Assembly: GCA_950295325.1 (NCBI GenBank)
Contig: OX485809.1
Span: 5,146,001-5,210,000 of the forward strand
Source of the DNA: Polytrichum commune
Lineage: Eukaryota; Streptophyta; Polytrichopsida; Polytrichales; Polytrichaceae
DNA: 64,000 nucleotides
Reading direction: 5' to 3'
Under the pieces are notes generated by a model. The model was given only the letters and a program-made list of their open reading frames with translations, did not search any database and was not told the DNA's origin. Positions within the stretch are counted from its first letter, which is position 1. Each line of letters starts with the position of its first letter. Shown here piece by piece: positions 1 to 58,453 of the stretch. Both the position numbers and the translations under genes were made by a program.

Positions 1-3000
1 GAATAGAGGAAAATGAAAATGAAGAAGGCCGAGGAATGGATTTACTTGAGCCCAGAAGGACGCCTTGTGTAGCCAGTCGTCCAAAGCCCTCTCCCTCATA
101 GGCTTGTCGACGGGGAACTTGTTATCTAACCTTTCACGAAGGGGGGCGTTCCACCAGTGAAGCCACTTAGCTTTGAACGAAGCTTCGACCGGGCATGTGA
201 CAATTTTTTGCAATTTTTCAATTGTCATGTCCGTCGAAGAGAACTCATTAAAATGACGGTCAATCTGTGCACAAAATAAAAATGATTTGAGTTCAAAAGA
301 GTAATAGAGTTGAAGAGTGATTTGGATGAATTGCGTTCAAGAGTGATTTGAGTTCAAAAGAGTACCTCATGAAAGAAATCCTCTCCATTGTCAGGGTGTG
401 CAACGGATATGTACTTCTCAAAAGAACGGGCCCGAATACTTTTGATTATCCTCTCCTGGGCCTTGGTCATAACATTCCAAATCTCAGTGGCCGACCTCTC
501 CGCAACGGGTGTGGTCTCACTGCAAGGTCTGCTTGAGCCGAAATGTCTCTCTGCAAGAAATGACCTTGTGAGTTCATATAATCGGTATGGAAATTATCTA
601 TGTTGGAAGCTCTAAATGATTGAATGCATAAAATCATACCTTGTAAAGAAACTTAACGAACACATCCGCGGTCAAGGTGTACCAAGTTGGGCGACTCTCC
701 TTTATCTTCTCGCATGCTTTGTAGTCAGATGGCGATATAAGATCCTTGAAGGTGGACAACTCTAACCTCCCAAAAGTGCGGATTCGAAGGAGCTTGGCCG
801 GAATGTTTGCCTTGACATAATCATGCTCGGTTGACCTGAGAAAAAATATGTGAGGAACGTGAGCTGAAAAGAATGGAAAAGAATTGAAACAAAAATGAAA
901 AATGAATGAAAAAAATGAATGAAAAAAATGAATGAGCTTACCAATTAATGTCGCTCATGACATTGAGGAATATACCGGTGTATCCTCTAGGGTCAACAAC
1001 AATGCAATCCACCGAGATATGCCAACTCTTGTCATCGGCGTGGTGGTTATTGATGTGTCTCCACCAAGCGGTGAGACGATGATTGCCTTCCCAGACGAAG
1101 AACATCTTCCCGGCGAAATGTGCAAGATCCGGATCCTCCTTGAGCTTGGCGTCAAATTCTGCGGAGGCCTCTTGCCAGAGAGGGCTCCAAGAGGCCATAA
1201 TGCCAGGGGGAATGGGGAGGTCCACGGGAACGTCGTTGAAAGAAGACACGTAAAGAACCCGATCACCCTCTCGGTATCCCATTACAAATTCACATTCCAA
1301 GCGCTGCACCTCAACCTCACTGATAGGACGGACGAGAGGGAGGGCTCTCAAGCGGCATAAAGGAATGGATAAGCGGGACTTACATGTTGGCTTAATCCGA
1401 AGGCATTGGATAACACCAATGGAGTCCTCCTTTTGTGATTTCCGAAGCTCAAGCTCACACACCACGGGATCCGTGTCGGCAACTGCTTGAACGGCATCTT
1501 CGCTCATTGCGAGAGCCTAACAAAAACACAAACAATAAAACCATGCTTAGAAAGCTAGAACTCAAAAAACTTGCTTAACAAATTATTCAACAACTATCCA
1601 ACTCACCTCTACTTGTAATGGGCCCTGCGAATTGAGACTCTCAACCTGCACAGCTTCAACTTCAACCGCGGGGGCCGCAAGAACAACATCCTCTCCAGAT
1701 TGGGGTTGCGATTGCGCAACCTGTGAAGAGTCCATATCCTAAGAACATGGAGAAAATGAGAATTTCACAAAGAAAAGTCAATAACTTCGTAACTATAAAG
1801 AAACAAATCCTCACAAAAACAATACAAGGCCGAGAGCAAACTACAAATGGAAATGGCCGAATGCTAAGTCAAGTGCTCAACTCTAGCACTAACCTACCTA
1901 CGAATGAGAGGCCTCGGATCCGAGGCCTCTTTTCCTACCTCCTCCTTATGCACTACCCAAAAGAAAAAGGCCGAGAGAAATCTTATGTGAACATAGCAGT
2001 TTGACTTTTCAAGCACATACATTGTCTCCAAAATGAGGCCTCGGATCCGAGGCCTCTTCACAAACCTCCTACTCATGTAGTACCCAAAACAAGAAGGCCG
2101 AGAGCAATCTTACACGAACATAACATTTTGATTTTTCTAGCATAAAATTGACACAAACATGAGGCCTCGGATCCGAGGCCTCTTCCCAAAACACATACTT
2201 ATTCACTTCCCAAAACAAGAAGGCCGAGAGGATTCGAAAATGAACATAAGATTTTCATTTTTCAAGCACATACCTTGACACAAAAATGAGGCCTCGGATC
2301 CGAGGCCTCTTCACAAAGTACCTACTTATGCACTACCCAAAACAAGAGGGCCAAGCGCATTCAAAAATGAACATAACATTTTAACTTTTCATGCACATAC
2401 CTTGACACAAAAATGAGGCCTCGGATCCGAGGCCTCTTCCGAATGCCCCTCCTTATGAAATACATACTACAGAAAATGGCCGAGAGAATTAAAAAATGAA
2501 CCTAACATTTTCATTTTTCAAGCACACAACCTGACTCAAAAATGAGGCCTCGGATCCGAGGCCTCTTCCAAATGCCCCTCCTTGATGATTTTAAAACCTA
2601 ACCAATTTACTTGTTACATGGCTCACGGGTGTTCACCCGTGAGGTTCACATTTGATGATGTTCCAGGGGAGGTCACTCCATTGCCAAGTTGCATCACCAA
2701 AATGGGTCAAAATTTTCTCAAATTTTTTTGGGACGTAGATATACATGATATCTATTACAGAGTAAAATATCATGACCAAATTTGATGACCATATTTTTCT
2801 AGAAAACATACCATTTCTACCTAGAATGACGCAGAATTCAACTAAAACAATTACTAGAAAAAATGAAGATGACAAAAAATTTCAAAAAAATATACAAAAG
2901 ATATAATCAATAGTTACGAATATAGAGAAAAAAAATCATAATTTTAAAAAATATTTGACATGGAGACATCTCCCCGTAATGATGCTAAATCCTACCCAAG

Positions 3001-6000
3001 TTACCTGTTACATGGCCCACGGGTGTTCACCCGTGGGGCACACATTTGATGATGTTAAAACCTAACCAAATTACTTGTTACATGGCCCACGGGTGTTCAC
3101 CCGTGGGGCACACATTTGATGATGTTAAAACCTAACCAAATTACTTGTTACATGGCCCACGGGTGTTCACCCGTGGGGCACAAGGCAGAGAGCAAGGAAC
3201 CAAAAAAGCAGGAAAGTTGACATTCTATTAGTTTGAGAAATCAAGAACCTCACCTCTCTCAAAACCCTACCTTTCACATACTCAAACTTACACAAATAGG
3301 AGGCTTCGGATCCGAGGCCTCTTCCTCTAGCTGGTTCTTATGCACTACAGAAAACAAGACAAGACCGAGAGCAATTGATGTGCACATAACATTTTGATTT
3401 TTCAAGCACAAACCTACCCACAAATAAGAGGCCTCGGATCCGAGGCCTCTTCCTATGGCTCCCACTTATGCACTACACAATAGAAGAAATGGCCGATAGC
3501 AAGGAATCAAGAAAGCAAGAAAGTTGACATTCCATTAGTTTGAGAAATCAAGAACCTCGCCTCTCTCAAAACCCTACCTCTCACATACTCAAACTTACAC
3601 AAATATGAGGCCTCGGATCCGAGGCCTCTTCCCCTAGCTGCTTCTTATGCACTACACAAAACAAGACAAGGCCGAGAGCAATTGATGTGCACATAACATT
3701 TTGATTTTTCAAGCACAAACCTACCCACAAATAAGAGGCCTCGGATCCGAGGCCTCTTCCTATGGCTCCCACTTATGCACTACACAATAGAAGAAATGGC
3801 CGATAGCAAGGAATCAAGAAAGCAAGAAAGTTGACATTCCATTAGTTTGAGAAATCAAGAACCTCGCCTCTCTCAAAACCCTACCTCTCACATACTCAAA
3901 CTTACACAAACAAGAGGCCTCGGATCCGAGGCCTCTTCACAAACCTCCTACTCATGTAGTACCCAAAACAAGAAGGCCGAGAGTAATCTTACACGAACAT
4001 AACATTTTGATTTTTCTTAAATAATATTGACTCAAACATGAGGCCTCGGATCCGAGGCCTCTTTCCAAAACACATACTTATTCACTACCCAAAACAAGAA
4101 GGCCAAGAGCATTCAAAAATGAACATGAGATTTTCATTTTTCAAGCACATACCTTGACACAAAAATGAGGCCTCGGATCCGAGGCCTCTTCACAAAGTAC
4201 CTACTTATGCACTACCCAAAACAAGAAGGCCAAGAGCATTCAAAAATGAACATAAGATTTTCATTTTTCAAGCACATACCTTGACACAAAAATGAGGCCT
4301 CGGATCCGAGGCCTCTTCCGAATGCCCCTCCTTATGAAATACATACTACAGAAAATGGCCGAGAGAATTCAAAAATGAACCTAACATTTTGATTTTTCAA
4401 GCACAAACCTTGACACAAAAAAGAGGCCTCGGATCCGAGGCCTCTTCCCAAAGCTCCTACTTATGCACTTAACAAAACACATTTCCCCCCCCCCCGCAGC
4501 TTCAGACCTCCATATCTTCCACGTGTGGTCTCCAAATCTAACAATCAACCACTCTATCGTCATCTACGTGAAATGTAGATGCCGATGGACACCTCACTTG
4601 CCCCATTTGGGCAAAAATCAAGGAAGTTATGCCTGTTTAAACATTCGCAGTCCCGGGAGCCACTCCCAGGAGACTGCTGATCGAGGGCACTAAAAGGAGG
4701 CCTCGGATCCGAGGCCTCATTTTCAAACTAGTGTACATACTCAAAAACAAGCAAAGTGCCTCATTCATACAAGCTATACGTTGAATCAAAAAACCTCAAG
4801 TGGCCTCGGCTGAGAGGCCTCGGATCCGAGGGCTCACACACAAAGTAATTTACGTACTCCAAACCAACCATAGTGCCTCATCCGTACACTAGTTTTGGAA
4901 CACATAAAAGAGGCCTCGGATCCGAGGCCTCTTCTCCTAGCTTCTACATATGCACTTAACAAAACACATTTCCCCCCCCCGGCAGCTTCAGACCTCCATA
5001 TCTTCCACGTGTGGTCTCCGAATCTAACAATCAACCACTCTATCGTCATCTACGTGAAATGTAGATGCCGATGGACACCTCACTTGCCCCATTTGGGCAA
5101 AAATCAAGGAAGTTATGCCTGTTTGAACATTCGGAGTCCCGGGAGCCACTCCCTGGGGACTGCTGATCGAGGGCACTAAAAGGAGGCCTCGGATCCGAGG
5201 CCTCATTTTCAAACTAGTTTACATACTCAAAAACAAGCAAAGTGCCTCATTCATACAAGCTATACGTTGAATCAAAAAACCTCAAGTGGCCTCGGCCGAG
5301 AGGCCTCGGATCCGAGGCCTTACACACAAACTAGTTTACATACTCAAAACCAACCAAAGTGCCTCTTCCGTACACTTGTTTTGGAACACATAAGAGAGGC
5401 CTCGGATCCGAGGCCTCATTCACAAACTAGTTTACATACTCAAAACAAACCAAAGTGCCTCATCCGTACACATGTTTTGGAACACATAAAAGAGGCCTCG
5501 GATCCGAGGCCTCATTCACAAACTAGTTTACATCCTCAAAAACAAGCAAAGTGCCTCATTCATACAAGTTATACTTTGAATCAAAAAACCTCAAGTGGCC
5601 TCGGCCGAGAGGCCTTGGATCCGAGGCCTTACACACAAACTAGTTTACATACTCAAAACCAACCAAAGTGCCTCTTCCGTACACTTGTTTTGGAACACAT
5701 AAAAGAGGCCTCGGATCCGAGGCCTCATTCACAAACTAGTTTACATACTCAAAACCAACCAAAGTGCCTCTTCTCTACACTTGTTTTGGAACACATAAAA
5801 GAGGCCTCGGATCCGAGGCCTCATTCACAAACTAGTTTACATCCTCAAAAACAAGCAAAGTGCCTCATTCATACAAGTTATACTTTGAATCAAAAAACCT
5901 CAAGTGGCCTCGGCCGAGAGGCCTCGGATCCGAGGCCTCACACACAAACTAGTTTACATACTCAGAACCAACCAAAGTGCCTCATAAAGACATGCCTAAC

Positions 6001-8101
6001 CAAGTTACTTGTTACATGGCCCACGGGCGTTCGCCCGTGGGGCACAAGGCAGAGAGCAAGGAATCAAAAATGGAACAAAGTTGACATTCCATTAGTTTGA
6101 GAAATCAAGAACCTCGCCTCTCTCAAAACCCTACCTCTCACATACTCAAACTTACACAAATATGAGGCCTCGGATCCGAGGCCTCTTGCCCTAGCTCGTT
6201 CTTGTGCACTACACAAAACAAGACAAGGCCGAGAGCAATTGATGTGCACATAACATTTTGATTTTTCAAGCACAAACCTACCCACAAATAAGAGGCCTCG
6301 GATCCGAGGCCTCTTCCTATGGCTCCCACTTATGCACTACACAATAGAAGAAATGGCCGAGAGCAAGGAATCAAGAAAGCAAGAAAGTTGACATTCCATT
6401 AGTTTGAGAAATCAAGAACCTCACCTCTCTCAAAACCCTACCTCTCACATACTCAAACTTACACAAATAAGAGGCCTCGGATCCGAGGCCTCTTGCCCTA
6501 GCTCGTTCTTGTGCACTACACAAAACAAGACAAGGCCGAGAGCAATTGATGTGCACATAACATTTTGATTTTTCAAGCACAAACCTACCCACAAATAAGA
6601 GGCCTCGGATCCGAGGCCTCTTCCTATGGCTCCCACTTATGCACTACACAATAGAAGAAATGGCCGAGAGCAAGGAATCAAGAAAGCAAGAAAGTTGACA
6701 TTCCATTAGTTTGAGAAATCAAGAACCTCACCTCTCTCAAAACCCTACCTCTCACATACTCAAACTTACACAAATAAGAGGCCTCGGATCCGAGGCCTCT
6801 TCCCCTAGCTCCTTCTTATGCACTACACAAAACAAGACAAGGGCGAGAGCAATTGATGTGCACATAACATTTTGATTTTTCAAGCACAAACCTACCCACA
6901 AATAAGAGGCCTCGGATCCGAGGCCTCTTCCTATGGCTCCCACTTATGCACTACACAATAGAAGAAATGGCCGAGAGCAAGGAATCAAGAAAGCAAGAAA
7001 GTTGACATTCCATTAGTTTGAGAAATCAAGAACCTCACCTCTCTCAAAACCCTACCTCTCACATACTCAAACTTACACAAATAAGAGGCCTCGGATCCGA
7101 GGCCTCTTCCCCTAGCTCCTTCTTATGCACTACACAAAACAAGACAAGGGCGAGAGCAATTGATGTGCACATAACATTTTGATTTTTCAAGCACAAACCT
7201 ACCCACAAATAAGAGGCCTCGGATCCGAGGCCTCTTCCTATGGCTCCCACTTATGCACTACACAATAGAAGAAATGGCCGAGAGCAAGGAATCAAGAAAG
7301 CAAGAAAGTTGACATTCTATTAGGTTGAGAAATCAAGAACCTCACCTCCCTCAAAACCCTACCTCTCACATACTCAAACTTACACAAATATGAGGCCTCG
7401 GATCCGAGGCCTCTTGCCCTAGCTCCTTCTTATGCACTACACAAAACGAGACAAGGCCGAGAGCAACATGATGTGCACATAACCTTTTGATTTTTCAAGC
7501 ACAAACATACCTTTCCTAACATGTTCCTAAACCCAAATCAAGACAAGGCCGAAAGCAAGTCAAGCTGATATTCCAAATACTATGAGAAATCAAGGTGATA
7601 GAAAGCAAAAACGTTGGCGAACATAGCTTGGCCGAGATCCCGACACCTTACCAGAATTTGGAGTATGCCCTCCACTGAAGCCCCTATATTGGCGCCACTA
7701 TCTTCCGAGGTCCCGTCCTCTGTCGGCGATATTGGAGTGCTTCTCGAATCTCCGAGGTTTACTTGCGCCATTCCTCTCCCGCAGCCACGCCCTCGCCTTG
7801 ATGTTTGTTGTGTTCCGCCCGCCTTGCTTCGCAGAAATCTTGAAGCAGGGGTCACAACATCCACACTTAGGGTTTCTGCGCATGGGTCTCCTCCTTCAGC
7901 TCTTTCGCGGCCTCCCAACAAATTTGATTTCAGATCTTCCTTTGCCGCTTTCCTCTTGGACGCCTTCATTTTTTCTCTTGCTTGAATCGTTGGTTGTCCC
8001 GACATCGGTTCTCGCTCTTCTAACGCCTTCTCAATTTGTTGTGCTACCTCCTTGTTGTCTTCTTCATAGATATTTCCACTATCTCCACTCCCCCCCTCTT
8101 C
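1..8101 (-). CDS. ParB/DGQHR-like element protein, paralogue A (3' end beyond window)
   Basis: This is a multi-exon minus-strand gene that continues past the left edge. Exons that join in frame with GT-AG borders are 8101-7652, 1738-1607, 1516-942 and 835-640. Two further coding exons end at 366 (start unclear, about 544-595) and run 264-46. The third exon encodes FFVWEGNHRLTAWW, matching the D/E-G-N/Q-H motif of the ParB/sulfiredoxin and DGQHR folds, which bind nucleotides or DNA in known relatives. Paralogue B has VDGQHS and C has INGQHT at the equivalent place. The last exon (FSSTDM) aligns with B just after its first coding intron. The first exon is basic and Gly/Arg-rich, lies 5.9 kb upstream and joins in phase 0. 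Its true start may be further upstream, because the frame stays open to an acceptor at 8102-8103; alternatively translation starts at the ATG at 1735. The 5.9-kb intron holds the A palindrome array. Function is inferred only from the motif and paralogy. Confidence 0.6.
2622..3177. repeat. Palindrome family D, four copies
   Basis: Palindromes with 10-nt arms CCCACGGGTG around a TT centre lie at 3016-3037, 3086-3107 and 3156-3177 (70-bp period). A variant at 2622-2643 has CTC...GAG ends, a symmetric change in both arms. The 70-bp unit also contains a conserved ACCTAACCAAATTACTTG segment. A fifth copy is at 6020-6041. Confidence 0.9.
4440..5204. repeat. Duplicated ~270-bp non-palindromic segment within the A array
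   Basis: Segments at about 4445-4718 and 4932-5204 are near-identical copies about 487 bp apart. Each starts after an A palindrome, has a C-run of 9-11 bases, an imperfect inverted repeat around CCCGGGAG at 4651-4677 and 5137-5163, and ends in another A palindrome. They contain no supported gene; ORFs here are translations of repeat sequence. Confidence 0.8.
6020..6041. repeat. Palindrome family D, isolated copy with symmetric variant
   Basis: Arms read CCCACGGGCG around TT, so the T in one arm and the matching A in the other have both changed relative to the copies near 3.1 kb. Perfect pairing of the arms is kept. Confidence 0.85.
6060..7413. repeat. 307-bp higher-order repeat carrying two A palindromes per unit
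   Basis: A 307-bp unit with two palindromes 128 bp apart is repeated head to tail, with first palindromes at 6164, 6471, 6778, 7085 and 7392. The same unit occurs at 3300 and 3607. Units are almost identical between palindromes as well, so they spread by recent segmental amplification rather than by independent insertion of each palindrome. Confidence 0.9.
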
Positions 8102-8912
8102 CTATATTTAAGATAAAACAATGTTTATAACAATGATGACAAACCATAATATCTAAAAGAAAAGTTGTTTCACAGTTGAATATGTTCTACCATTTTCATT
8201 ATGTGCTCAAACAACTGAATATATGGAGAACCCGAAGAATACGTACGACACTTGTAACACTATATTCGTTAATTCGAGACTTTGGAAAGTCTCAAAATAA
8301 ATTGGACCCGTAGTTTCGGATGCGAATATTGTGAACGTAGGGAACATGGGGAACAATGGCAACATAATGTTCGAAAGATCCATATGTGATGAATATATAT
8401 GTTTCTAAATATAGTAATTATTTGGGGGATAATCAAAACTACGCCAACACAATATTCCAATGTCACAAATTCACAATTATTTTGTATTTTTGATTTTGTA
8501 TTGAACAAAATTAATGAATCTATAAATAGCCATCTGATTTTATATCTAGGGACTCTTGGATGCGTATCCCAAACATAACATCTTAGCCAATTGTGGGTGA
8601 ATTGAACGGCACATCCCAAACGCAACAATATTAAAATAATTTGATAGTGTGTATAAGAAATTGCAAATTAGCATCTGCAATATAATTATATAGTTTGGAC
8701 TCCACATCCGTAAACACAAACATATAAAAAACATTTGATAGCGCATGTGAAGTTGGATTCCACATCCGTAAATCAATACAATCATGATATATAATTGTAA
8801 TCTATAAAATTGCTATAAAATGTGTCTAATATAGTATTCGACCCCAATGTCATATATTTCATGAAAAACCAAGACACATTTCAAATAATTGTGGTCCAAC
8901 CCTACGTCAATA
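8102..8912. other. AT-rich intergenic stretch, no gene seen
   Basis: It lies between the 5' side of paralogue A and the 3' end of the B-associated DUF7869 gene. It has two copies of a TCCACATCCGTAAA segment near 8700 and 8759. The CATCCGTAA part resembles a decayed half-site of the B palindrome. No convincing coding exon was found, although an upstream exon of paralogue A could lie here. Confidence 0.5.
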
Positions 8913-11900
8913 TCATTCTCCATCTTCATCTTCAGCTTCATTTCCATTCTCGACATCGTTTTCTGCAGCAGCAATACGTGCCAAGTTGTCTTTGGCAAAA
9001 TCTATATGTTTTTGGGGGATGGTCATTGTCTCTGATTTGGAACCTTTGCGTGGTTTCCAAGCACAAAGTATGGTATCTGTGTTTATCCATATTGGTTCGT
9101 ATGCTGAGTCCATTGTCCATTTGAAACCTTTTTTGGTGTCCCACCCTAAATATGTGCGGAGCACATTTTGATCTTTGGTGCTGGGACGGCAATATTCCAC
9201 CTCAATTTGATGAAAATTTGGGCTAGTTGGAACAAAATTTGGTGATGACAATGCTTTTACCAACCAAATCGGTTTAGGGTGCTCCTCATCTCCAGGACGT
9301 ACGAGGATCATATACCCTTCGTAGCAATCAACAGCCACACGAAATGATGGAGCCGGACGATTACGAGCTGGGCCAACATAATGGTCGTCCGCTGCGAACT
9401 CTTCACGGATGTCCCCATTGTTGAAGAACATGGCCTCAGATTCCACGATTGTCACTCGGCTTTGTGGCCAAAAACCTTGTGTCAAACATGAATGTGTTTC
9501 GACATCGGGTGCTAGCAATGCTGAGCGAATGCGATCCCAGTACGTAATCAATGGTTCGTGGGTATCCCGAACACGCCTTGTGATGTCTTCCTCGCACAAT
9601 TCTTTCCAATATTGGATGAATCCGGATATACCTTTGATGATTTCTGGTCCATTCCTCATGGGGTTGGGTTTGCAAGGCTTCGGCTCCCCATCAGGTAGCA
9701 TACATTTGCCTTCTTCGTTTTGGCGCCATACGAGTATCCCTTCCTCTGGACCCCAATCCGGGGAAGTGCACAAAACTTTGAATTGCATGGCCGGCAAACC
9801 ATCATCACGCATATAGAATCGGAATTGTTGAGCCTTGGTATGGCCCACTAAACGGTCACCTCCCTTAAGAATGAATGGTTCGATAAACGCTTTGAAATCG
9901 GGCACTTCTTCAATCAAATGCGGGATGACTGGCACATTATCCAAATCCATGTATGATTTCATGAGAAGAGGAATCGTCGGAAAATCCTCCTCGTGCAACT
10001 TCATACTCCAACGTCCAAATGAAGCGTCAATGTCATCATGCGTGTGGCCAACCATCAAAAAAGACACAAACACTTCTTTGAAAATGCCCTTGGCTACGAG
10101 CAATGACCAAAAACAAAACACGTATCGACATTTGTTGTCTTTGGCACAATTGTCCAGTTGCACATGTAGAGTTGGAGGCAAAGGTTTAGCAAGAACGGTT
10201 TGTTCAAGCGGTTCTTGCAGTGACGATAGACATACTTCTTTCCCCTCTAGCACAGCCTCATAAATCGGTGTTGTTCCACATCCAACAAAAAGAGCGCGAG
10301 AGGATGATGTTGGCGGACTCTCAAGATCTCGTAGAAGTTTTGCAAAAGACCCTACGGTATGATTGGCGTCGCCTGGATAGAAATCCAAGCCATAATGTGC
10401 ATACTTGACGTCCACATGGCCATGTGCGATCATACCTGAATTAAGACATACAAATGAGAAGTACATTCCAATATCATTTATAATAAGGAAATTCAATTTT
10501 TCCGCAAGCAGGCCAAGAAAATGAACAAACACTTACGGATGTACATCCGTAACTCTTAACGATGAGTATGTGGGTTCGCAAAAAAAATGTGAAAACCAAC
10601 GAACCTGTGACAGATATTGGAAGCTTGAAATATCCATCTGTAGCCTTTATTTTCCGTGCATAACAAGGGCACGCAGTCTTCGCATGGTCCATTTTGTCAT
10701 GAATGATTGTCAAAACCTCATTCGGCCTCATTATCGATAATGCGCGATTCTTGTAGTAGTCTTGACGGTGTGCCTCTTGGTTGTTGACATGCTCAATGTA
10801 TTTCCGTTGATGTCTATTGTGCGACTCAGTCCCTATGGGATGTGCATCTCGAAGGCCCTTGTATTTTTCACAAGCAGAACACCTGGCAAACTTATCCCCA
10901 GGCCTCTTCGTAATGTACTCTGCAAATTGTTGATTCTTGATCACACTCAATTTTGACAACGAAATCGGCCCACATCCAGCCTTTTCGCCAACCTCATTAA
11001 CATCCATAAGTATGTTCTTCCATTTTGTCCCTGTAGGCAAAACCATCTGGACAACCTTTTCCCCCGACGGCAGAGTCCGTGTTTTGTGTGGCATCGCATC
11101 TGCTAATGGCATAATGATGGTTGATAGTGTTGCAGCTGCTTGGAGTGTTGCCTCCCTGGGCTTCTTTGTACCAGAGTTGCCATGGAACCGAGAACGCCGT
11201 CCTTGCAGCGAGTAGTTCCGGAACCTATAAAAATCTGCCTTTGAAACTGCATGTATAATGTACCATGCCGTGCAGCATACCTCTATATTTTCCAAGGTCA
11301 CAACCTTACGACCTTCGGCATCAAAGTGCATGTTGCGATGGACTTCAAGTTTCTTTGCAGATCGCATCCGAAAGTCCGCAAGCCACATCTCTTGTCTCAA
11401 AGATTTGATTTTGTCACGGGGAAATAGTTGGCAACACATTTTTGCACAACAATCCTTTGTTGCTACGGACCTAATAGATGTGTCTCCCAATGTTAGATCT
11501 CGACGACGTTGCGTGGGTTCACGGGGCACGCGAACGGAATCATATTTACGCCGACCTTGTCTAGGACGCATTGTGGCGAACAAAGTCTTTTGTATTTCCT
11601 CAAAACGACGTGCATGATTCCACAAGCTGACACCATCGTGAAGAACACTTCGCAACGGCCATCGACGAAGAGAGAATCTCCAACCAGGAGGTACTTCCAA
11701 TGGATGTAAGGAGTTCAAAATGCACACCCCAACATCTTCCTCCCCAAGGGGATTTGCATCAATACAGTCCATAGGATTTGAGTTCCTACAAACACCATTG
11801 GCCACGGGGACGCCGTATCCATTGACTATGACAACATCAAGATCAATCCATTGTTCCTGCGAATAACCCTCACATGTTGGTATGAAATCATCCTCTGCAT

Positions 11901-12009
11901 TGGCGACACCAATTGTAGTTTCATGTTCCATAACACCTTCAAATTCGCTAGCATAGCTTGACGCTTCCGAAGAGAACTCGAATGCATTATCTCGGACGTT
12001 GGAATCCAT
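8913..12009 (-). CDS. DUF7869 transposase-like protein (B-associated)
   Basis: Two exons, 12009-10605 and 10435-8913, join in frame (V-T-G-M-I-A) to give about 975 aa. The start is the ATG at 12009-12007, just inside an exon whose acceptor TTGTAG precedes it. The N-terminal half has Cys-rich patches (CCAKMCCQLFPRD, FARCSACEK, CPCYARK), consistent with zinc binding. The C-terminal half has the DUF7869 signature: VQLDNCAKDNK followed by VGHTHDDIDASFGRWS. DUF7869 proteins are usually read as RNase H-like transposase relatives; catalysis is not proven. The C-terminus is acidic (EAEDEDGE). The intron contains a B-type palindrome and is absent from the paralogue at 31.75-34.9 kb, which has an intron elsewhere instead. 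It is divergent from the B ParB-like gene. Confidence 0.8.
10533..10552. repeat. B-type palindrome variant inside the DUF7869 intron
   Basis: Half-site TTACGGATGT followed by its reverse complement, 20 bp. Relative to the main B palindrome the core has changed symmetrically in both arms, so the palindrome is intact. It sits in the only intron of the B-associated DUF7869 gene. Confidence 0.8.
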
Positions 12010-12150
12010 GGCCACTACAAGTGACCCACATGAAGAGTATGTCAAAATATCCCATTCAATAAATGTCATGGATAGTCCTAACGCTTATTGTCAATGAAAC
12101 ACAATGTCAACAATAGTGGATTTCATGGCCTGGAAACAAAGACACATTGG

Positions 12151-12378
12151 TATACGAACGCGCGTACGTATATCTCCATGTAACAACATTATCAGTGCAA
12201 GCACGCGCATACATATGTCTTTATTTATTCATAGTCGGCGGAAAGGTCCAGACAACAAAAACATGACAGTTTTATGGGCGCGCACCCGTAAATCTCTTCG
12301 TGGTCAAAGAGGTCAATATCATGCGCAAATGTTTTCGCAAACTATACAACATAGGTATACGGACGTGCGTCCGCAAAC
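12151..12378. repeat. Degenerate B palindromes upstream of the DUF7869 gene
   Basis: Imperfect relatives of the B palindrome occur at 12151-12172, 12271-12292 and 12357-12378, each keeping a GCGC or GTGC core and partly matched arms. They look like older copies of the array at 12.6-13.2 kb. A short ORF across them is a repeat translation. Confidence 0.65.
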
Positions 12379-12608
12379 ATCCGAATGTCAAAAGTCAGTG
12401 TTGTGCAAGACACACAGAGGTTTAGGAAACCAAGATGTCCAGGTGTCAGGTTCCTACTGTGTATTATGAATGTCAAAATATTATACTATGACACATAGGG
12501 TGATGTAAGCTTAGGGTTTAGGGATCTTATACCTCCATTGACCGTACAGTCTCAATGTAATATTCTACATGGCACATAGTGAAAAGTATGGAACCAAAGG
12601 TTTGCAGG

Positions 12609-13193
12609 TTTACGGATGCGCGTCCGTAAACCTCTCTGTACCTCATTACTAGCACAAATAGGTTTAGGTTACTGGACGTGAGTCAAAAAAATTTCATGAC
12701 AATACAGTCTCGTTGGTATACTATACATGGCAAGTGGTCATGATGTCAGCTCAGGTGCAATACCGAACAATGGAACAAAAAGGTGCAAAAGTTTACAGAC
12801 GCGCGTCCGTAAACCTCAATGTAGATGAAATAGGTCAAGTATAATTCTCACTGCAATAGATATCCAATCAAGCAAGAGGTTAAAGGTTTACGGACGCGCG
12901 TCCATAAACCTTAATGTACATGAAATAGCTGAAGTATAATTCTCACAACAATAGATATCCAATCAAGCAAGAGGTTTAAGGTTTACGGACGCGCGTCCGT
13001 AAACCTCAATGTAAATGAAATAACTCAAGTATAATTCTCACAGAAATACATATCCAATCAAGCAAGAGGTTTAAGGTTTACGGACGCGCGTCCGTAAACC
13101 TCAATGTACATGAAATAGCTCAAGTGCAATTCTCACAGAAATAGATATCCAACCAAGCAAGAGGTTTAAGGTTTACGGACGCACGTCCGTAAA
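12609..13193. repeat. B palindrome array 1 (six copies)
   Basis: Copies at 12609-12630, 12792-12813, 12887-12908, 12982-13003, 13077-13098 and 13172-13193 have half-site TTTACGGACGC and its reverse complement; the first, second, third and last carry single changes. The last five are spaced 95 bp. The array lies 5' of the B-associated DUF7869 gene. Confidence 0.93.
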
Positions 13194-16560: not shown

Positions 16561-16663
16561 AAATATAGACCAGTAGGGTGATGCCACGTAAGGGTATAGG
16601 CCGGCGATTGGGCGCGACGTTTGGGGTAGGGACACGTGGAGGCACGCCATTGTTTTAGGGTTC

Positions 16664-17120: not shown

Positions 17121-17164
17121 TTCTCTTTCCTCACAATGCAAAACTCATTCTTATTGGTCAATTG

Positions 17165-17913: not shown

Positions 17914-17993
17914 GTAAAGTCCCGAAAAACACGGAGCATTAATGAAAACATTGGAATACGCAAACATTACAATAGCCTTTATAATCCTCAAAG

Positions 17994-18727: not shown

Positions 18728-18781
18728 TATGATCTATATCTTTTGCCAAGAATTCTAACTTATCTATCTTATCATTTGCAG

Positions 18782-48400: not shown

Positions 48401-49978
48401 ACCCCCTGACTTGAACATGAGTTGTGCTGAGCTGAATCAGGAGCTCAATAGCTGCAGTACCTGGCTGGCTTGCTTGCAGCTGCCGCTGCTTCCCACATCC
48501 ACGATCTCTAGACTACACTGAGTGGCACTGATTCACAGACTTGTTCAGAGATACGCATTCAAATCTGAAATGTACATATTTGAAAGAAAATCTTAAATAG
48601 GTCAGTCTATTCTATGAAGATTTACAACCCCCCCCCCCCCCACCCCCCCTTCCCCCTTTTTTGGAGGCTTGAGTGAAACATTTTATTCTTACTTGTCAAG
48701 AAAATATACGGTGTCATTGGGACCTGAAGTGTAGAGAGGGGTAGCTCTCCACCTGTTACACCCTCAAATCCGTAATATCAACTTCCATAATGTCACACAC
48801 TCTTTTAATATCCCGAAATCCTAGGGAGCAGATGTTCGTAGTTCAAATCTCACTCCTTATTGTCACATTTCTCTTCCTTATCTCACGAATTTTGTCATTA
48901 ATGCAAACCATCAAAGAAGTCAACCCACACCCTCACATTGCGCCATGTGTCAACATGTGGAGTGTCACCTTTTCATTCTTATTATTCTTCTTCATCTTTT
49001 TATGTCACTTGTTGAATGTTGGTGCATGTGTCCGCCACATCACCCGGGAAGGCCATGAAGTGGACCACACTAGTGTACGTGACGGGAGAACAAATTGAAA
49101 TTATCCTCACATATCCTCTGTGTTATTCCATAATGCCACATGCTAACACGAATTCTATAGCATCACACAACCATGTTAACACTACACAACTCCGTGATAT
49201 CACATGCATGTTGGTTGCCACAGGTGTGATACTATGGAGTTTAGAGTGTATTATCATGTAGCTCTCTACTAGGGTGCATGTGATGGGCCGGCAATGGGAC
49301 CACACAACCCCAAGCAAGGTAACTATCTGAGGGCCGGTTTACAATATGGACCATGAAGTTGTCCCAGGGCGATGTAAGAGCGTTGATTGGTTGTTGATCA
49401 CGTCCCGGGACAACTTTGGTTTACACTAGAGAAAAAATGGTAAAGGGACCACAGAGGTCAACGTCCCAAAAATAAGCCTAATTGTCAGCCATAAACCCCC
49501 ACCCTTATGCGTCGTAGTCCGGGTGAGAGCCCATGGCCCACATAACACTATATTAAACATTTCGGGACTTGGCGTCAATATGGGACTTCTGGAGTGTCCA
49601 TTGAGATCGCATTGGGAACGCATTGGGAACGCATTGGGAACAAATCCTATGTTGTGTAGCAGTGACCCCTAATGGACTCCCAGTTGATTGCAACACTACT
49701 TTGACCGGTTCAAATGAGTGGGTGAGTGGAGGCTACAGCCTTGTACTCGAAAGAAAAGAATTGGTAACCCATACACCAAGTTTGTAGAACAATTACTGTT
49801 TGAATTGAGATCTTTATTCCTGAAGCATATGTCGAATGCCTCATTCTTAGGCGTCTACATACATGTTTGGCTATATATATGTCCCCACCGATATGTGGCT
49901 AAAGGGGACGCATTATCAACTATAGTATTTAATACATGTTGTGGCTTCTACAGGTCGCTCAATTGTAGTCCTGCCTCG
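42463..49978. other. Long non-coding AT-rich region
   Basis: No gene could be supported. It contains C-runs near 43790 and 48628, an (AT)n tract at about 44634-44657, a near-palindrome at 44435-44470 (arms GAAACAAAAATATAT), a MITE-like inverted repeat at 47976-48400, a short inverted repeat (AAGTTGTCCC at 49356 and 49407) and a triplicated GCATTGGGAAC near 49610-49640. Confidence 0.55.
47976..48400. mobile_element. MITE-like element with perfect 20-bp inverted repeats
   Basis: AAGGTAGAAATACCATAACC at 47976-47995 is the exact reverse complement of 48381-48400. The roughly 425-bp span has no ORF. Size and terminal repeats fit a non-autonomous DNA transposon; no clear target-site duplication was identified. 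Confidence 0.55.
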
Positions 49979-50778
49979 TCAAGCGATACGATTATTTCCA
50001 CGGTCACCCAATCCAGCCCGCAAAAGTCGAACTGCCCTTGAATTAGGGCCTTGAGATTCGATGAGTGAAATTTGGTAGTCCCGTGTAGCAGCGGGGTGCA
50101 CGATGGCCAAAGTTCCGCATGGAGGTGTTGAAGCATCTGCGAGGGTGCACATACTGGTGTCAACGCCCTCCACATGGTTAATGGTGGAAGGGAGCTTCGT
50201 CATGGCGGGTTGAGGGGCATAAGTCTTCCCAAGTCCTGCCAATCCAGCACGTAGAAGACGAACACCTCTTGAGTCAGGGCCTTGCGATTCGATTAGCGCA
50301 ATTTGGTACTCGCGGGTAGGGGTGGGGCGCATAATGGATAATGTATGGGCGGGTTGTGGTCCGTCATCCATTGGGGGGAGCATATTTAGGTCAACATCCT
50401 GCAGGCCGACATAGGCAAAAAACATTCTCCAACTTATTGCCCCACAAATACCACCAACATTCATATACATGCACATACATTCCACGCCAAATGTTGGAGA
50501 TTAGATAGAGATTGAAAAGGAGATTTGCAAAATATTTATTTGGGTAAGAACATTCCCAGGTGAACAAAATGAGCTATATTTACCAGATTCTGTCCATCAG
50601 GGGTTGCTTCAGCGAGGGGTGACACACTTTGAGAGTTAGCGACCCGGATAGCTTCTACGCCCACGTGGGCAAGTGAGAAGGGATGGCAGGCCAGTACTAC
50701 GTTGTGTTCATGCCGCGGGGTGAGACACACGAATGCCGATCGCTTGGAAGTGGATGGTGTGTATCCAGCAGGAGGAAA
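49979..50778 (-). CDS. Hypothetical protein downstream of the C HAD exon, with internal duplication
   Basis: Two candidate exons, 50778-50584 and 50398-49979, have good borders (TTTGTTCAG, GTAAAT, CCTGCAG) and join in phase 0 to about 204 aa. No start codon is evident in exon 1. Exon 2 contains a 25-residue unit twice, near 50314-50240 and 50083-50009, each with YQI-LIESQGP and VRLLRAGL, about 52 residues apart. The gene sits 83 bp after the HAD stop on the same strand, matching the B arrangement, and both first exons start with F/L-P. No known domain. Whether it is spliced onto the HAD transcript is unresolved. Confidence 0.45.
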
Positions 50779-52140
50779 CTGAACAAAGCATATAATACAC
50801 AATGTTACATGCCATACAATTCATGAACCTTACATGCCCTAACCTAAACCCTACATGCTAACTATCTTGGGACAGTAGTTATAGGGTGCAAGTCGGGTCG
50901 ATTGGAGTGCTTGTTGGCCATCATAAGTGACTCCCTGACTGGATCGTTATGCGGGACCGGCTGTTGCCCAAATCTATGTGTGATCACAAAATCGCGTACG
51001 TCGCTCATTGTCGAATTGAACATACGTTGGAAGTAGGGGAGAAGAACTGCTCTCATATCCACAGTTGCCTGTTTGTTGGTGGTGAAGGAATCGGGAAACA
51101 ATACATTCCCGGGAGGATTACAAGCACCTTTGTAGGGGCTGTCATCCACAAGAACAGTGTTCTCAATAGTGGCAGTAACACGTCCGGAATCAAGAGATAC
51201 AGGCGGCCACCAAAATGTTTTGTTTAAACTCTTGAAGAACAATACTAATTCTGGCTTTAGGGGGTTCCTGATCTGATTGTCCCAGATGTCTTTGAATGTG
51301 ATGCAATCCTCCTGGCCAAGAACTATTGCAGGTTTTGACATCCCATTGAATAGAAACTCCACCACGAGGTCCACAGTGGACTTTTTCATAGATGACCATA
51401 TGCAAACATAGAACATTTGGGTCATTCTCTTCCAAAACTGCTTGTAACCCAGTCTAGGTAGGACAGCTTTGGGACCGACAATCGCCGGACCCTTGTCTGG
51501 CGCACGATCTTGCACCATCCATGTGGGTAAAGCGGAACGGCCGCGAGGAATACAATGACAAAATATGCCATTCAAATCGAACACCAGAATGAACCTTCGG
51601 TCGGGTACAGCAGCTAGTGCCTGGCGACAGGAATCCACTGTCAACTTCTCCTGCTTTACTCGAATTACATATAATGTTGCAACTAATGAAAATTGTGGAA
51701 CTTCATATATTCAAAAACTTACATTCATATATGCAATAGGTGCATATATTGATATGGGGGTTTATAATGAATTAAATATTAAAAGTTATTATGAACTGGG
51801 AAACCAATACCTCGAAAGTTATGGGATTGAATTCCCAGCGATCCGATGGTCCTAATGAAGGGTCTTGAGGGTCCCTAGAAATAAGTCTTTTAGCACACGC
51901 TATTCCCATCTCCCTCGTGAAAACTTGAGAGATGTTCCTATCGTACGTTGGGTAGTTGTCAGCGTAAACAAAAAGTTTATCATAAACAACGTGTGGGTTG
52001 AAGGGCGCATCCACAGTCGTTTGCGCACTTTGTCCACCCTGAACCCAAAACTACGCGGAGATGAATGTTTGGGACACAAATAAACCGGGTATATTGAAAA
52101 GAAAATCCAGTGGACCAAGTGAAATTTTATTGAGAAGGGG

Positions 52141-52200
52141 AAACGAAGCTTACACAAACTAAGTGCCATGAGAAGGGGAAACGATGCTTACACAAACTGG
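52141..52200. repeat. Short tandem duplication at the exon 6 donor of paralogue C
   Basis: The AAACGAAGCTTACACAAACT segment is repeated about 40 bp later as AAACGATGCTTACACAAACT, which duplicates the splice donor region at 52191. The duplication could produce an alternative donor. Confidence 0.5.
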
Positions 52201-55200
52201 GAGAGCTGGCCGCACACGCAGCTCTGGGCAAGTGACCTCGGAACGGCTGGTGTGCATAGCCCGCCAAGCCTCAAATGGACGTTCGGCTATTTTTGTATTG
52301 TCAGGGGGAAAGTCGGGGAACCTGTCGTCGCGTGGCCAACGTTCCACGACTTTCTTGACATGATGTGGGCCGACAAAAGATGAAGGCTCCGTTGGATCGA
52401 CGACAGCGGGCTCCGTTGCATCAACGACAGGAGGCTCCTCACAATGTGGAGCCTCGGGTTGGCAAGGGCCTGCAGAAGAGGAAGGCTCCATTGGCTCCAC
52501 GGTAGCAGTACAGTAACAAGGTGGTGATATTGGTTGTTGCAGGCCTGCAGATGATGACCCGGGCTCTGAATGTTCGATGACAGCCTGCTTCAGAGCAAGA
52601 GGTTTGATGGCAGCAATGTGGACCGCTGTGGGCGAAGGCGACTTGACCACATCATCGTCACTACCTATGGGCAAGAGGGGTGAACGATCCCCTTTGTCCA
52701 AAGGGGTGACGACAAGCGTTGGACTTCGACATGTAGTGGCAATGGGGGCTTGCATGGGGCCAACTATAAGTGAGGTGTCCTCTTCGGCTGCACCCGTTTG
52801 CGGGACTGCTACACATGGTGATCTTGGCCGTGTGAAATCAACGATTTGCAAACCAGCCTGTGAATTGAACATGCATTGTTAATGACAGCCATTGCAGACA
52901 ATGTAATTGAATGTAAAATGTAAAACACATTTCATTGAATGTAAAATGTACATCTTCCAAGTACCCAGTACATGGTGAGTTTGGCTACAACTAAAATGTC
53001 CTAAAGGTTTTTAAGTCCAATGCTCTAGTCAGCCTTGGATTGCGATCTACAAACGGCTTCCTATTCTCCAAGTGGTTTGATTATGATGCGCGGCCTCCAA
53101 CCTGGATCAAATATCCCGGCGGAGATTCAATGACTAGCATGTTTAAAAACAATTGGAAAAGCGAGAATAGGTCAAGGATATTTACCTCATCTTCAACAGG
53201 CTGGGAATCATGGGAAGGCCCCTCCACGCATCCGGCATCTGCAGGTGAACTTTCCACTTCGTTCTTCTCGGCCGATTTCTCAGCAACCTCCGGTTGATCC
53301 ACATGAGCTGGCTCGACTTGAGGAAGGACATCTTGGGGAGGGTCAGTACCAATGGGGACAGAAACAACCTCCGCATTTGCTGGTACAGGGGCCGGAGTAG
53401 GAATTGGCGTGGGCACGGCTTGAGAGGGTGGCATGGCCTGGGCCATGGCATCCTTGAACAGGCTCGTTAGTAAGCCTGGCAAATTTTTATTCAAAATGCC
53501 CATCATGAGAGGTTCCAAAACAGCCGTCGTAAGTGGGGGCTCCACGGGCTTACCATGGTGGCGTTTATGCCTATCCTTAGTTGAGGACCGACTTCGTGAG
53601 CGAGAGGACTTCCTATGTGGAGTGTCCATGGCACCACTAGGACCAACATCGGCAATACTGGGTCTGAGGGGACTCTGTGGAATGTCCATGGCACCACTAG
53701 GACCAACTTCGGCGGTACTGGGTCTCTGGGGACTACGTGCAGCAGGCTGTGGAGGTTGGTAGGTGTCGGGAATAGAACGAGGGGACTCCAAAACCACATC
53801 GACATCTTCGACCTCCTCTTCGACATCCTGATCCTCGTCAAGGGCATCCTGATCCTCTTCTTCGACATCCTGGTCCTCATCTTGGTGTTCCTCATCCTCC
53901 TGGTCCTCATCCTCCTGGTCCTCATCGTTAGCCGGGTCTTGGTCATCGCGGTCTTCGTCATCGAAGTCAAGTTGCTTCGCTCGCAGCGGCGAAGCACCGA
54001 GATCGCAGGCAGTCGACATATGCTCTTCCAACGGAGTCAAACCGCCAGTGGCATCATCGTCCGAGTGCTGGGACGTGTGGGGGGATTCGCCATGGCTCTC
54101 GACGTCGGTATCCCGTTCACTTGGAGGCTCCACAGACTCATCATCTTCATCGTCAGGAAGATCTTCCACATCGGAGGGGTTTCGGTCAATGTCCATGGCC
54201 TCGATCGGTTCGCGATCTTCGACATCCTCCTGTGTAGCAACCATACAATGTCAACAACTATCTCATATAAAGGGGGAGTGAGAAAATGATGATTTTCATA
54301 AATACAAGTAATTCATTAGCAATACTTACCAAAAGCAAGGGTGGATCTGGGTTGAGGTCAGGGTGAATGTGGCCATCGTGGGCTTGGTACTCATCTTCAT
54401 CTTCGGCTTGTTCAGCAAAATCCTTCAGCTTAAGTACGCGAACACGTTGAATCAACGCGTCCAGAATATGCAAGAATGCCGAATCCATGTAGGAAAAGAC
54501 GTTGTAATCGTGCATCTGGAAAATCAATGAGGTTAGAAAAATGGAAGAGGGAAGAGGTGAAAGGGAACGAATTGAGATAGTTCAGATAGGTGGAACTCAC
54601 CAACGCTGCAGCAACTGGTTTCAAGCCCCCAAATAGATTGAGAACCATGCCTCCGGCGGAGCCCATGTACTCCAAGAACTTAATATAGACCTCCATTCTG
54701 AGCTCCCCTCGATTCACTTCATATGTCAACTCAGACCAATCCTTGGGTTTTACTTTGTATCGGCGCGAATCCGGGGCTAGCATTGGACATGCAATTACCT
54801 TCCACTTGGGAAATTAATCTGGGACAATGAGGTGGTCGATGTAGAGGGCAGGGGTTTGCCTCTTTCCATCTATTTATTTGGGGTCGGCTAATTCCTCTGC
54901 AGAACAAGGGAAATAGAACGACGGGACGATCACAAACGTATTGGGATGTCTGCGCATAAGCGACGACATGAATACGAGCGAGGCATCGTGGCTACGCAAG
55001 TCGGAGACAATCATCCAAGCTGGAACAGATTTCACCCCTGGTGTCCATTCCGGAGAGCACAAGTATTTAACCAAGGACTCCACAACTTCAGGAGGGATTG
55101 GTTCATCTACACATCCAGGGATGAACCTGAAGTCCAGAAACCCCGCGGCAATGATGCTTCCCTCAATCCACTCAACATCACTGGAATCTTGCTTGGGAAT

Positions 55201-56043
55201 CACCAATCGTTTATTAATGGCATTATGCGACACCCACCGCGTGATCATTTGCCCTGTGCATTCGTTGAAATCTGTTTGCAGCCAGTCGCGAAGCAATCGG
55301 TCTAATGCCGGCTGTACCGGCAAGGACTTATTGTTAGTTGCATTTTTCTTGTTCAGCCAATCTGAAGTCGCAACCTGGTAGAGCTTTATCCATTTCGGCT
55401 TTGTAATTTCATGCTCCCGTTTGAATTTTGTCCATACGTCGCGATCGAGGAACCCATGCCCCTCATCATCCTTCTTCCACAAGCCAACTTTATTGGGATC
55501 CCGCCTATCCAACTCCTGCAGCAAGATATTCTTCCACTTGCGGAAATTGCACCATGACTTCAGTGTCACGACTTTGCTGTTCTTGCAAGTCCTGAGAGTG
55601 ACACTAGGAACGCCGTCCTCTCCCCTCCCTTCTAGAAGCCGTCTCGCTGCTAGGTGAAAGTCAGGTTTTGTGAGTCCTGACATGTTCTTGAACGTCTCCC
55701 TTGTAAGGGGTTTAGTCACGAAAGGTTTCTCCTCGAAGGGTGTTCCTGCCTTGGACTTCTCGTGGCGAGCTCGCAATTTTTGCTGAGCCTCCACATGATC
55801 TTCCAGGTATGTGCGTCCTGGCTTGTCCGGGTTGATAAATAAACCCTTCTCGTGTGACACGAACATTTTTTTCTACAATCTTGATGTTTCCTCAGGGGCC
55901 ATAATTAACGTGAGTTCCGCTTTAAGATCGTTATGCGTGATCCCTCTTGCGATTGCGGTGAATGATGCCTCCATGCTGGTAGTGAAGTTCTGCACATCAC
56001 GGATACAGGAGTGAGATTCATGATGAACACAATGTGAAGGCTC

Positions 56044-56073
56044 ACCACTTTCACTCGATCGAGTGAAAGTGGT
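56044..56073. repeat. C palindrome in intron 1 of paralogue C
   Basis: A perfect 30-bp palindrome with half-site ACCACTTTCACTCGA, inside intron 56134-55990. B has its own palindrome in the homologous intron. Confidence 0.92.
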
Positions 56074-57621
56074 GTGAGGCCATGGTCACCACTTGAGGGA
56101 GCAGATGAATTAAGGGGAGCAGAGAGTAACATACCTTCCAAGCCAATGCTTTCTCAGGGTCATGTGTGGCCTCAGAGGCGTTCGTACGTTGCTTTTCGGG
56201 CTTGTTCAACTTCACCCATACCCTGCGACAATACAGAATTTGTGTAGTCCATGTTGGTGTGAACTTGTTGAACGAGTTCGAATTGTTCAATGTATATGAA
56301 AGCCTGACGGTCATGCTGGGGTCCTCTGTCCACACAATTGTGCAGGGTCACACCTTCAACTTTTCCTTGAGCTTAGGATCCGTATCTCTATGAGCAATTA
56401 TTTCCGTAGATGCGGCTACAGTATGTTGCCCATTGATTATGGCGAATTGCATGTTCTTGATGTCATCCCATGTCATCCTTTCTCGCCATGTCTCACATTT
56501 CTTAAACTTCGGCATCAAACACAGATTGTGCTGAGGCCATGTAGGTGGGGTTTGGATGAGGTAGTTCTTCATGAGGTTCACCCCACTTGGATCCAGCGGC
56601 CGCGTAACCTGATAAGCTTTTGCGCCCTTCATTTGCTTGATGGGTACACGGAATATCAATTCTACGCCGAATGGATAAATGTGCCCAAAAAATTGCAAAA
56701 ACTTCTTCCTATCCAGAGCAGCTTCCTCAAGGCTGGGTTGTTGACCTTGCGATATAACTCGACCCTTCTCCGCTTGAGTCAAGACCAGTGGGGTGTCCTC
56801 ATGCATAACATCGTCTTGCTTCATTTTCTTTTGTTTTGGTTTCTTCTCGGGTGACAATGCCCTCTTTTCTTTCTTTTTCCTTCCACTCCCGGCATCCCCA
56901 GCATCCCTCTCCGTGTTCTGAGTATCTGGTGCAACGTGGGGCTCCACCTCGTGAGGCTTCTCTCTCTCCGTCTCCTTTGATGCAGTTCGCTCTTCAGTTT
57001 GTTTCCCCTTCTTTGCCTTCAATTTTTGTCCAATAGAGCTGCCACCTTCGTCGGCCTTGGACTTCAATATACCCTTGGCTTGCTTATTCTTTTGCTGCCT
57101 TGATTCTTCACGTGTAGCTGCCTCTCTACTGTTGATGTCTTCCAATGTCTCCAACACAAAGTTTATGGCTCTTTTGGTTATTCCAGATGACATCATCTTC
57201 TCTATCTCTTCCTTCTCCTTTGAAGGGAGTGAGGCTACGGACTCATAAAATGGCACCAAGAGAAATGTATGCTTCTTGCAATCTATAGATAAAATTCTCT
57301 CTTCCACCCCCTCCATAACCGAAACCTCTAGCCTATCCCTCGCTCCCACATGAGCGATGGTAATTGGATTTCCAGGGTTCGGAATCCAACTATTGTTTAC
57401 CTTGTACGTGAATATAAGGTCGTACCCTAAAGATTGGTTTTTCTTGTTAATAGCCAGTGACCACTTCTGCAAATGGGAGTCCCTAATTACCCATTGAGGA
57501 CCATTTGGCCCTGCTTGTCTGGATCCAACTAGATCTGTCCATAAAACAACTTTGTCCATTCTTCCTGCAAAGTCCCCCAATAAGTTAGGAAACCACATAA
57601 CTCCACAATCCATCCAGCCAG

Positions 57622-58453
57622 CACTTTCACTCGATCGAGTGAAAGTGGGGCTTGGCCATCAAGCAAGCCAGACAGCCATCTACTGGCCACTTTCACTCGA
57701 TCGAGTGAAAGTGGGGCTTGGCCATCAAGCAAGCCAGACAGCCATCTCCAGCCAGCATTTTCACTCGATCGAGTGAAAGTGGGGCTTGGCCATCAAGCAA
57801 GCCAGACAGCCATCTCCAGCCAGCATTTTCACTCGATCGAGTGAAAGTGGGGCTTGGCCATCAAGCAAGCCAGACAGCCATCTCCAGCCAGCACTTTCAC
57901 TCGATCGAGTGAAAGTGGGGCTTGGCCATCAAGCAAGCCAGACAGCCATCTCCAGCCAGCACTTTCACTCGATCGAGTGAAAGTGGGGCTTGGCCATCAA
58001 GCAAGCCATACAGCCATCTCCAGCCAGCACTTTCACTCGATCGAGTGAAAGTGGGGCTTGGCCATCAAGCAAGCCAGACAGCCATCTACTGGCCACTTTC
58101 ACTCAATCGAGTGAAAGTGGGGCTTGGCCATCAAGCAAGCCAGACAGCCATCTCCAGCCAGCACTTTCACTCGATCGAGTGAAAGTGGGGCTTGGCCATC
58201 AAGCAAGCCAGACAGCCATCTCCAGCCAGCACTTTCACTCGATCGAGTGAAAGTGGGGCTTGGCCATCAAGCAAGCCAGCCAGCCATCTACTGGCCACTT
58301 TCACTCGATCGAGTGAAAGTGTGGCTTGGCCATCAAGCAAGCCAGCCAGCCATCTACTGGCCACTTTCACTCGATCGAGTGAAAGTGTGGCTTGGCCATC
58401 AAGCAAGCCAGCCAGCCATCTACTGGCCACTTTCACTCGATCGAGTGAAAGTG
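57622..58453. repeat. C palindrome array, 13 copies
   Basis: Thirteen 26-bp palindromes (half-site CACTTTCACTCGA) start at 57622, 57688, 57756, 57824, 57892, 57960, 58028, 58094, 58162, 58230, 58296, 58362 and 58428, with a 66-68-bp period. Those at 57756, 57824 and 58094 carry one mismatch. The spacer is a conserved GGCTTGGCCATCAAGCAAGC unit. The array sits between a candidate leader exon (58806-58614) and the first coding exon of paralogue C. ORFs here translate the repeat. Confidence 0.95.

Follow-up and report, generated by a model that had tools for sequence, protein, structure and literature searches.

Family-specific palindrome arrays that co-vary with ParB-like genes in DNA transposons of Polytrichum commune, and their possible role in self-recognition

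Three DNA transposons of Polytrichum commune, here called A, B and C, carry arrays of long palindromes, and across their subfamilies the palindrome changes together with a ParB-like protein encoded by the same element. In the reading preferred here, the ParB-like protein of each family, acting as a dimer, would recognise the palindrome of that family, copies of which stand before the divergent genes of the element and in its introns. Such binding would mark the element as self and would most likely act by anti-silencing or auto-activation, with the chromatin kept open or the promoters active and only the own family being switched on. This reading of family-specific binding that keeps the element active, drawn from sequence comparison and from analogy with known systems, is given a probability of roughly 0.45.

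The window is the whole stretch of DNA analysed, 64,000 nucleotides in length (contig OX485809.1, positions 5,146,001 to 5,210,000). Across it there are 63 perfect palindromes, gapless and with an arm length of 9 bp or more, six of them belonging to one TA run, as against 0, 0, 0, 1 and 1 in five mononucleotide shuffles. The arrays are real and are part of the three transposons. Exons and splice sites were read by eye, and the survey given below covers one genome. The features of element A are as follows (here and below, strand is given where one applies).

938..1738, minus strand, ParB-like exons of A with the motif EGNHRLTAW, assigned by this motif and by homology to family M
1907..7413, A palindrome array of 35 sites, GAGGCCTCGGATCCGAGGCCTC and close variants
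7580..8101, minus strand, ORF resembling an upstream exon of the A ParB-like gene, present also in copy L035 (8010-8558)
26554..29923, plus strand, divergent partner gene of A, joined directly to A in another copy when B is disregarded
31040..31068, right-end terminal repeat of A, the element ending near 31068

The sites of A were counted at up to 2 mismatches in window positions 1-8254, and 32 of the 35 are perfectly palindromic, with arms no shorter than 9 bp. The ParB-like gene extends off the window on its left side. In another copy of A the sequences corresponding to 8256 and 25583 of the window adjoin without interruption, and B is therefore nested in A. The partner gene, which we take by its motif to be Mutator-like, matched nothing in Pfam or NCBIfam. 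In this A differs from Mutator-like elements; what it has in common with them is seen in a copy on contig C3, the one copy with both ends read, which has a target duplication of 9-10 bp and terminal repeats of 29 bp that differ at one position. A 149-bp inverted match in a copy on contig C4, considered as a terminal repeat of A, was rejected, as it lies beside retrotransposon-like sequence and is not an element end. In the A elements neither DUF7869 nor a phosphatase-like domain was detected (best E 0.015), yet they have arrays. Element B is laid out as follows.

8256..25582, element B, a DNA transposon with the terminal repeat AACACTATATTCG at both ends and the target duplication TTGT
8913..12084, minus strand, DUF7869 gene (PF25273, E 5.6e-41)
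12151..13193, array of nine sites before the DUF7869 gene, at up to 4 mismatches
17989..18728, array of six sites before the ParB-like exon, the sites running from 17994 to 18726
18782..20071, plus strand, ParB-like exon of 430 aa, the ParB/sulfiredoxin-like part at about residues 264-390
20090..20111, palindrome in the next predicted intron
20204..21523, plus strand, exon 2, with no recognised domain
21571..21685, three palindromes (21571, 21618, 21664) in the following predicted intron
21760..23175, plus strand, exon 3, of low complexity and coiled-coil-like by eye
23092-23113, near-palindrome near the end of exon 3
23204..23225, near-palindrome, 4 mismatches, in the predicted intron preceding the phosphatase-like exon
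23516..24283, plus strand, exon 4, NLI-interacting-factor (FCP1-like) phosphatase-like domain (PF03031, E 4.4e-13)

Comparison with two other copies shows sharp ends of B at about 8256 and 25582, and 4-bp target duplications were read in three copies (TTGT, TATA and ATTT). Many near-identical copies of B (97-100%) are present in the genome. Telomere-like repeats of the CCCTAA/TTAGGG type lie at window 14410-14490, between the divergent genes of B and upstream of the ParB-like array, and occur also in a distant copy of the B43 subfamily (L014:625-701). A 41-bp tandem repeat with the near-palindrome ATTTAGGTTGAGTCGACCTAAAT is found at window 36160-36308 and again at L033:2238-2565, and the B copy on contig C3 sits inserted in an array of this kind; the repeat could represent the array of yet another family of elements. 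Element C and a C-type element occupy other parts of the window, and subfamilies (C90, C60, C54) are distinguished, as are those of A and B, by identity to the window protein.

31105..31540, two C60-type sites (31105, 31521; TTCCACTCGATCGAGTGGAT, TCCCACTCGAACGAGTGGAA) before a DUF7869 gene
31754..34865, plus strand, DUF7869 gene of a C-type element (PF25273, E 5.3e-38)
49544..64000, element C, from its phosphatase-side end and continuing past the right end of the window
50862..51710, minus strand, phosphatase-like exon (PF03031, E 4.7e-10)
56049..56068, palindrome in the predicted intron that follows the ParB-like exon
56357..57562, minus strand, ParB-like exon with the motif INGQHTVAA
57622..58453, array of 13 sites, 12 of them exact, in the predicted leader intron, the sites running from 57625 to 58450

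Two further copies of C have terminal repeats beginning AACACTATATT and the duplications TTAT and TTTA. The C90 copies L005 and L006 keep the ParB-like frame open further than C does. An ORF at window 41148-41765 presumably resembles a Stig1-type cysteine-rich plant protein. In both B and C the DUF7869 gene and the ParB-like gene are divergent, and the ParB-like gene carries the FCP1-like exon; for 45 of the best 49 among the 104 C exon matches, a DUF7869 match in divergent orientation lies no more than 35 kb away. The regions upstream of DUF7869 in a C54 and in a C60 element contain the C54 and the C60 palindrome, respectively, and both divergent genes share one palindrome in B, C90, C60 and C54.

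The preliminary description of this DNA had given the sizes of the three arrays correctly (35 in A, six before the ParB-like exon of B, 13 in C). It had placed each array in the same intron, immediately before the exon with the first good ATG, which holds for B and C; the array of A appears instead to lie in an internal intron, as judged from exon-like ORFs upstream of it (window 8101-7580; L035:7482-8558; splice sites by eye). It had called the palindromes unrelated; that of B is distinct, but those of A (CTCGGATCCGAG) and C (CTCGATCGAG) have the half-site CTCG/CGAG in common. Finally, it had assigned each ParB-like gene a private palindrome: the palindrome is private to the element family, but not to the ParB-like gene, because the DUF7869 gene divergent to it has the same palindrome in B and in the three C subfamilies.

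The genome of 407.8 Mb was surveyed for relatives of these exons, and ParB-like matches came to at least 150 for A, 98 for B and 104 for C. At up to one mismatch the palindromes occur 2678 (A), 1641 (B) and 230 (C) times, and the reversed control gave 0 each. Proximity was checked on the first-listed sites (65 of the 2678 of A, 53 of the 1641 of B and 50 of the 230 of C): an exon of the own family lay within 15 kb in 55/65, 52/53 and 50/50 cases, and none of these sites was near the exon of another family; for C, the exons used were the best 49 of the 104 matches. Ten A sites are more distant, and nine of these make up a single cluster 21-23 kb from an A exon. Thirty copies, mostly with open frames, were hand-picked from the 98, 104 and 150 matches, and 29 of them were used (L030, on the wrong side of the exon, was left out of the matrix), which fall into seven subfamilies with the following palindromes.

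A, copies of 71-99%: GGCCTCGG-NN-CCGAGGCC
A65, copies of 56-67%: CCCTCTCGG-NN-CCGAGAGGG
B, copies of 78-100%: TTTACGGACG-CG-CGTCCGTAAA
B43, 43%: TTTACGAACG-NN-CGTTCGTAAA
C90, as in C: TTTCACTCG-AT-CGAGTGAAA
C60: CCACTCG-AT-CGAGTGG
C54: CTTCCTCTCG-NN-CGAGAGGAAG

The palindrome of the own family was present and the most frequent one in 27 of the 29 copies, ties included, four of the 27 being tied with the motif of a sister family. Only 10 of the 174 cells for foreign motifs were non-zero, each between sister families. The two misses are L027, which has no A65 motif at up to 2 mismatches and whose array has a shorter core, and L008, with 7 own and 9 C54-type sites; L015, cut at its 5' end, has one site. 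The C60 copy L008 contains both CCACTCGATCGAGTGG (7) and CCTCTCGATCGAGAGG (5), and is intermediate between the C60 and C54 sites. The motifs were derived from these same 29 copies, and nine held-out copies provide the independent test: all nine have their own palindrome, L059 as a single site and L061 and L064 tied with a sister family, and the shuffles gave 0. The co-variation of palindrome and ParB-like sequence that the preliminary description had proposed to look for among other genomic copies is thus present. Of the two observations it had named as contrary to its proposal, palindromes mainly away from the genes were not seen, the listed sites being almost all near ParB-like exons of their own family, whereas relatives without palindromes do exist in one related family, M.

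Family M is dispersed and has a ParB-like exon followed by an N6_N4_Mtase domain; no palindrome array was found in either of the two copies examined, L056 (C1:9657000-9666500) and L057 (C4:44109000-44117500), which are 96% identical over 6.9 kb. L056 scores 32.4 bits against PF01555, above the cut-off of 26.7. Element A scores 12.4 bits, below that cut-off, though it is homologous to M (BLASTP E 6e-13) and collinear with it, seven exon pieces matching in the same succession (E down to 8e-18, against 0.008 for the reversed control). On contigs C1-C7, PF01555 gave 80 matches, two of them above the cut-off. Three small contigs, C10, C12 and C23, have ParB_N above the cut-off, and C10 and C12 also N6_N4_Mtase; these are possibly bacterial contamination. 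In viral contigs 25 stretches fit a pattern, none with an encoded relative. Fusions of ParB with a methyltransferase are frequent in phages according to the available text of PMC12704722, in which neither the word plant nor the string transpos appears. M, and in decayed form A, have the same order of ParB-like exon and N6_N4_Mtase, but they are intron-bearing, nuclear and dispersed; the catalytic motif is DIPYG in L056, DIPDG in L057 and DIPEN in A, and among the copies of A and M examined arrays occur in A alone.

The preliminary description had spoken of a ParB-like fold, and a ParB/sulfiredoxin fold is supported for the B exon by a low-confidence structural model (mean pLDDT 50.7; 53-84 by blocks in the ParB-like part). 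The top three Foldseek hits of this model are ParB structures (E 3.4e-3, 3.0e-2 and 0.22; none at 0.001). With VIA-align the first 21 hits are chains of ParB, Noc, PadC, KorB or sulfiredoxin (Z 9.3 to 6.5, the first nine 9.3-7.9), the match spanning about residues 238-393, while residues 20-184 match PTB, PH and FERM domains with Z no higher than 4.8. For A, the motif and homology to M suggest a ParB-like nature. On the other hand, the arginine of the G-x-x-R motif, kept in 13/13 A proteins, is S or T in all 15 of B and C, with equivalence of the position judged by eye. None of these ParB-like genes matched Pfam ParB_N on contigs C1-C7, and a profile comparison of the ParB-like parts of A with those of B/C gave no significant link (probability 0.1%, E 0.42). 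Sequence searches of the PDB gave no match with the A alignment and one irrelevant match (E 0.64) with that of B/C. A methyltransferase-like motif noticed by eye in exon 2 of B/C was discarded, having no support from Pfam, PHROGs, BLASTP, profile or fold searches.

Co-variation within related lineages can be inheritance, and the arrays might simply have arisen as intron DNA was duplicated in tandem, in which case they would match the protein subfamily through common descent alone. Most arrays are indeed tandem repeats, with units of 40-310 bp; however, when subfamilies or the two B arrays are compared, the palindrome proves conserved and the remainder of the unit no more alike, or scarcely more, than shuffled sequence, which makes this explanation quite improbable. 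In these comparisons the palindromes are 90-94% identical, and the flanks 0.54-0.56 against 0.52-0.55 in shuffles. For A against copies of 71-87% the values are 0.92-0.96 for the palindrome and 0.48-0.62 for the flanks (shuffles 0.55-0.57), and for C against a C90 copy 0.99 and 0.65 (shuffles 0.54). This flank test argues against simple inheritance, but is weakened in that the choice of its sites depended on likeness to the palindrome (at up to 3 or 4 mismatches of 22, which sets a floor of about 0.82 on palindrome identity). In all 31 regions with sites the CpG observed/expected ratio of the palindromes exceeds that of the depleted spacers, a difference that is partly built into the motif and that also speaks against duplication alone.

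Most genic sites lie in predicted introns or leaders, as would suit RNA hairpins serving as splicing or small-RNA signals. Such hairpins are very improbable, given that mismatches of the G-U type are not in excess on the sense strand: one-sided mismatches comprise 32 G.T and 41 A.C, counts that are not independent. Shared subfamily variants dominate the one-sided mismatches (52/184 are C.C). Of 14 two-sided mismatches, 12 are complementary. The zero-gap palindromes, and a central dinucleotide that is free in A65, B43 and C54, suit the site of a protein dimer better than a hairpin. Kept in spite of diverged flanks, and showing no G-U bias, the palindromes resemble DNA-binding sites.

If they are such sites, the binder could be a transposase, namely the DUF7869 or the A partner protein, using them in transposition with the ParB-like protein as a passenger. 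Repeated subterminal motifs are bound by many transposases, and arrays are found at DUF7869 genes as well. This is nevertheless improbable, because the sites are internal, at promoters and in introns, thousands of bases from the terminal repeats of B, and because A has arrays but a different partner gene. Moreover, within C the ParB-like exon is 90, 60 and 54% identical to that of the window and the DUF7869 gene 88, 84 and 81% (measured from another query gene), although the palindromes differ between these subfamilies. The palindrome thus shifts with the faster of the two genes. The ParB-like protein is taken as the putative binder on account of this faster divergence, and of its gene being the only type seen both in DUF7869 elements and in A elements with arrays.

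The effect of binding by the ParB-like protein is a separate matter. It could repress both divergent genes and so cap copy number, in the manner of a plasmid or phage repressor, and repression would fit the same data. Sites stand before both divergent genes and just past the first donor site of the ParB-like exon (B, L003 and L014), as expected of a repressor. Yet up to 35 sites over 5.5 kb and in several introns exceed the needs of a promoter operator, and the abundance of almost identical B copies suggests recent spread and not tight control; repression is accordingly held to be unlikely, while still a serious contender. Activation or anti-silencing is favoured by analogy with VANC and VirB. 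The observations that stand against self-recognition by the ParB-like protein are the missing array of M, the misses in L027 and L008, the arginine loss in B/C, the low confidence of the model behind the ParB fold of B, and the want of a profile link between A and B/C.

Self-recognition by the element, the first half of what the preliminary description had suggested, is supported by the co-variation in the 29 copies and the held-out ones. The second half, partition, or a centromere-like system by which the elements would segregate as replicons, is prompted by a ParB-like fold adjoining palindrome arrays and is extremely improbable: the elements are integrated transposons with terminal repeats, target duplications were present in every copy with both ends read, and integrated elements need no partition. 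A bolder form of the self-recognition reading is a eukaryotic parS-like system, in which ParB-type proteins derived from phage-like ParB-methyltransferase fusions would load at the palindrome arrays of their family, spread along the element and shield it from silencing, the ancestral methyltransferase (as in family M) having lost its catalytic motif as the array evolved. This is speculative and rather unlikely.

Among known systems, the nearest is VANC of the Arabidopsis VANDAL elements, an element-encoded factor whose binding sites are motifs repeated in the non-coding DNA of its own elements (PMC5735166), the family-specific tandem-repeated motif and the protein diverging together (PMC5735166; PMC10398659). 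Both properties, a family-specific motif repeated in non-coding parts and its divergence along with the protein between related families, were found here, a likeness that goes by published description. The VANC motifs have 8-9 bases, and the word palindrome is absent from the available text of PMC5735166; the present elements have palindromes of 20-26 bp and a ParB-like protein, and include DUF7869 elements as well as a Mutator-like one. VirB is a ParB-family anti-silencer that loads at a palindromic site, according to the part of PMC10653881 available. With ParB, Noc, KorB and VirB of the ParB-CTPase fold, the present system would have in common the modelled fold of the B protein and palindromic sites near the gene; it differs in belonging to eukaryotic transposons, in the missing G-x-x-R arginine of B and C, and in the fusion of their ParB-like part to other exons and an FCP1-like domain. 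A search of titles and abstracts in the open-licence literature found no paper on ParB-like proteins in eukaryotic transposons.

If the preferred reading is true, the self-recognition known from VANDAL elements, by a co-evolving protein and a repeated motif, would have arisen also with an unrelated type of protein, with long palindromes and in more than one class of transposon. Dozens of subfamilies, present in many copies and with half-sites that can be read off, would make it possible to work out by comparison how protein recognises DNA and how this code drifts, and would yield orthogonal pairs of DNA site and binding protein.
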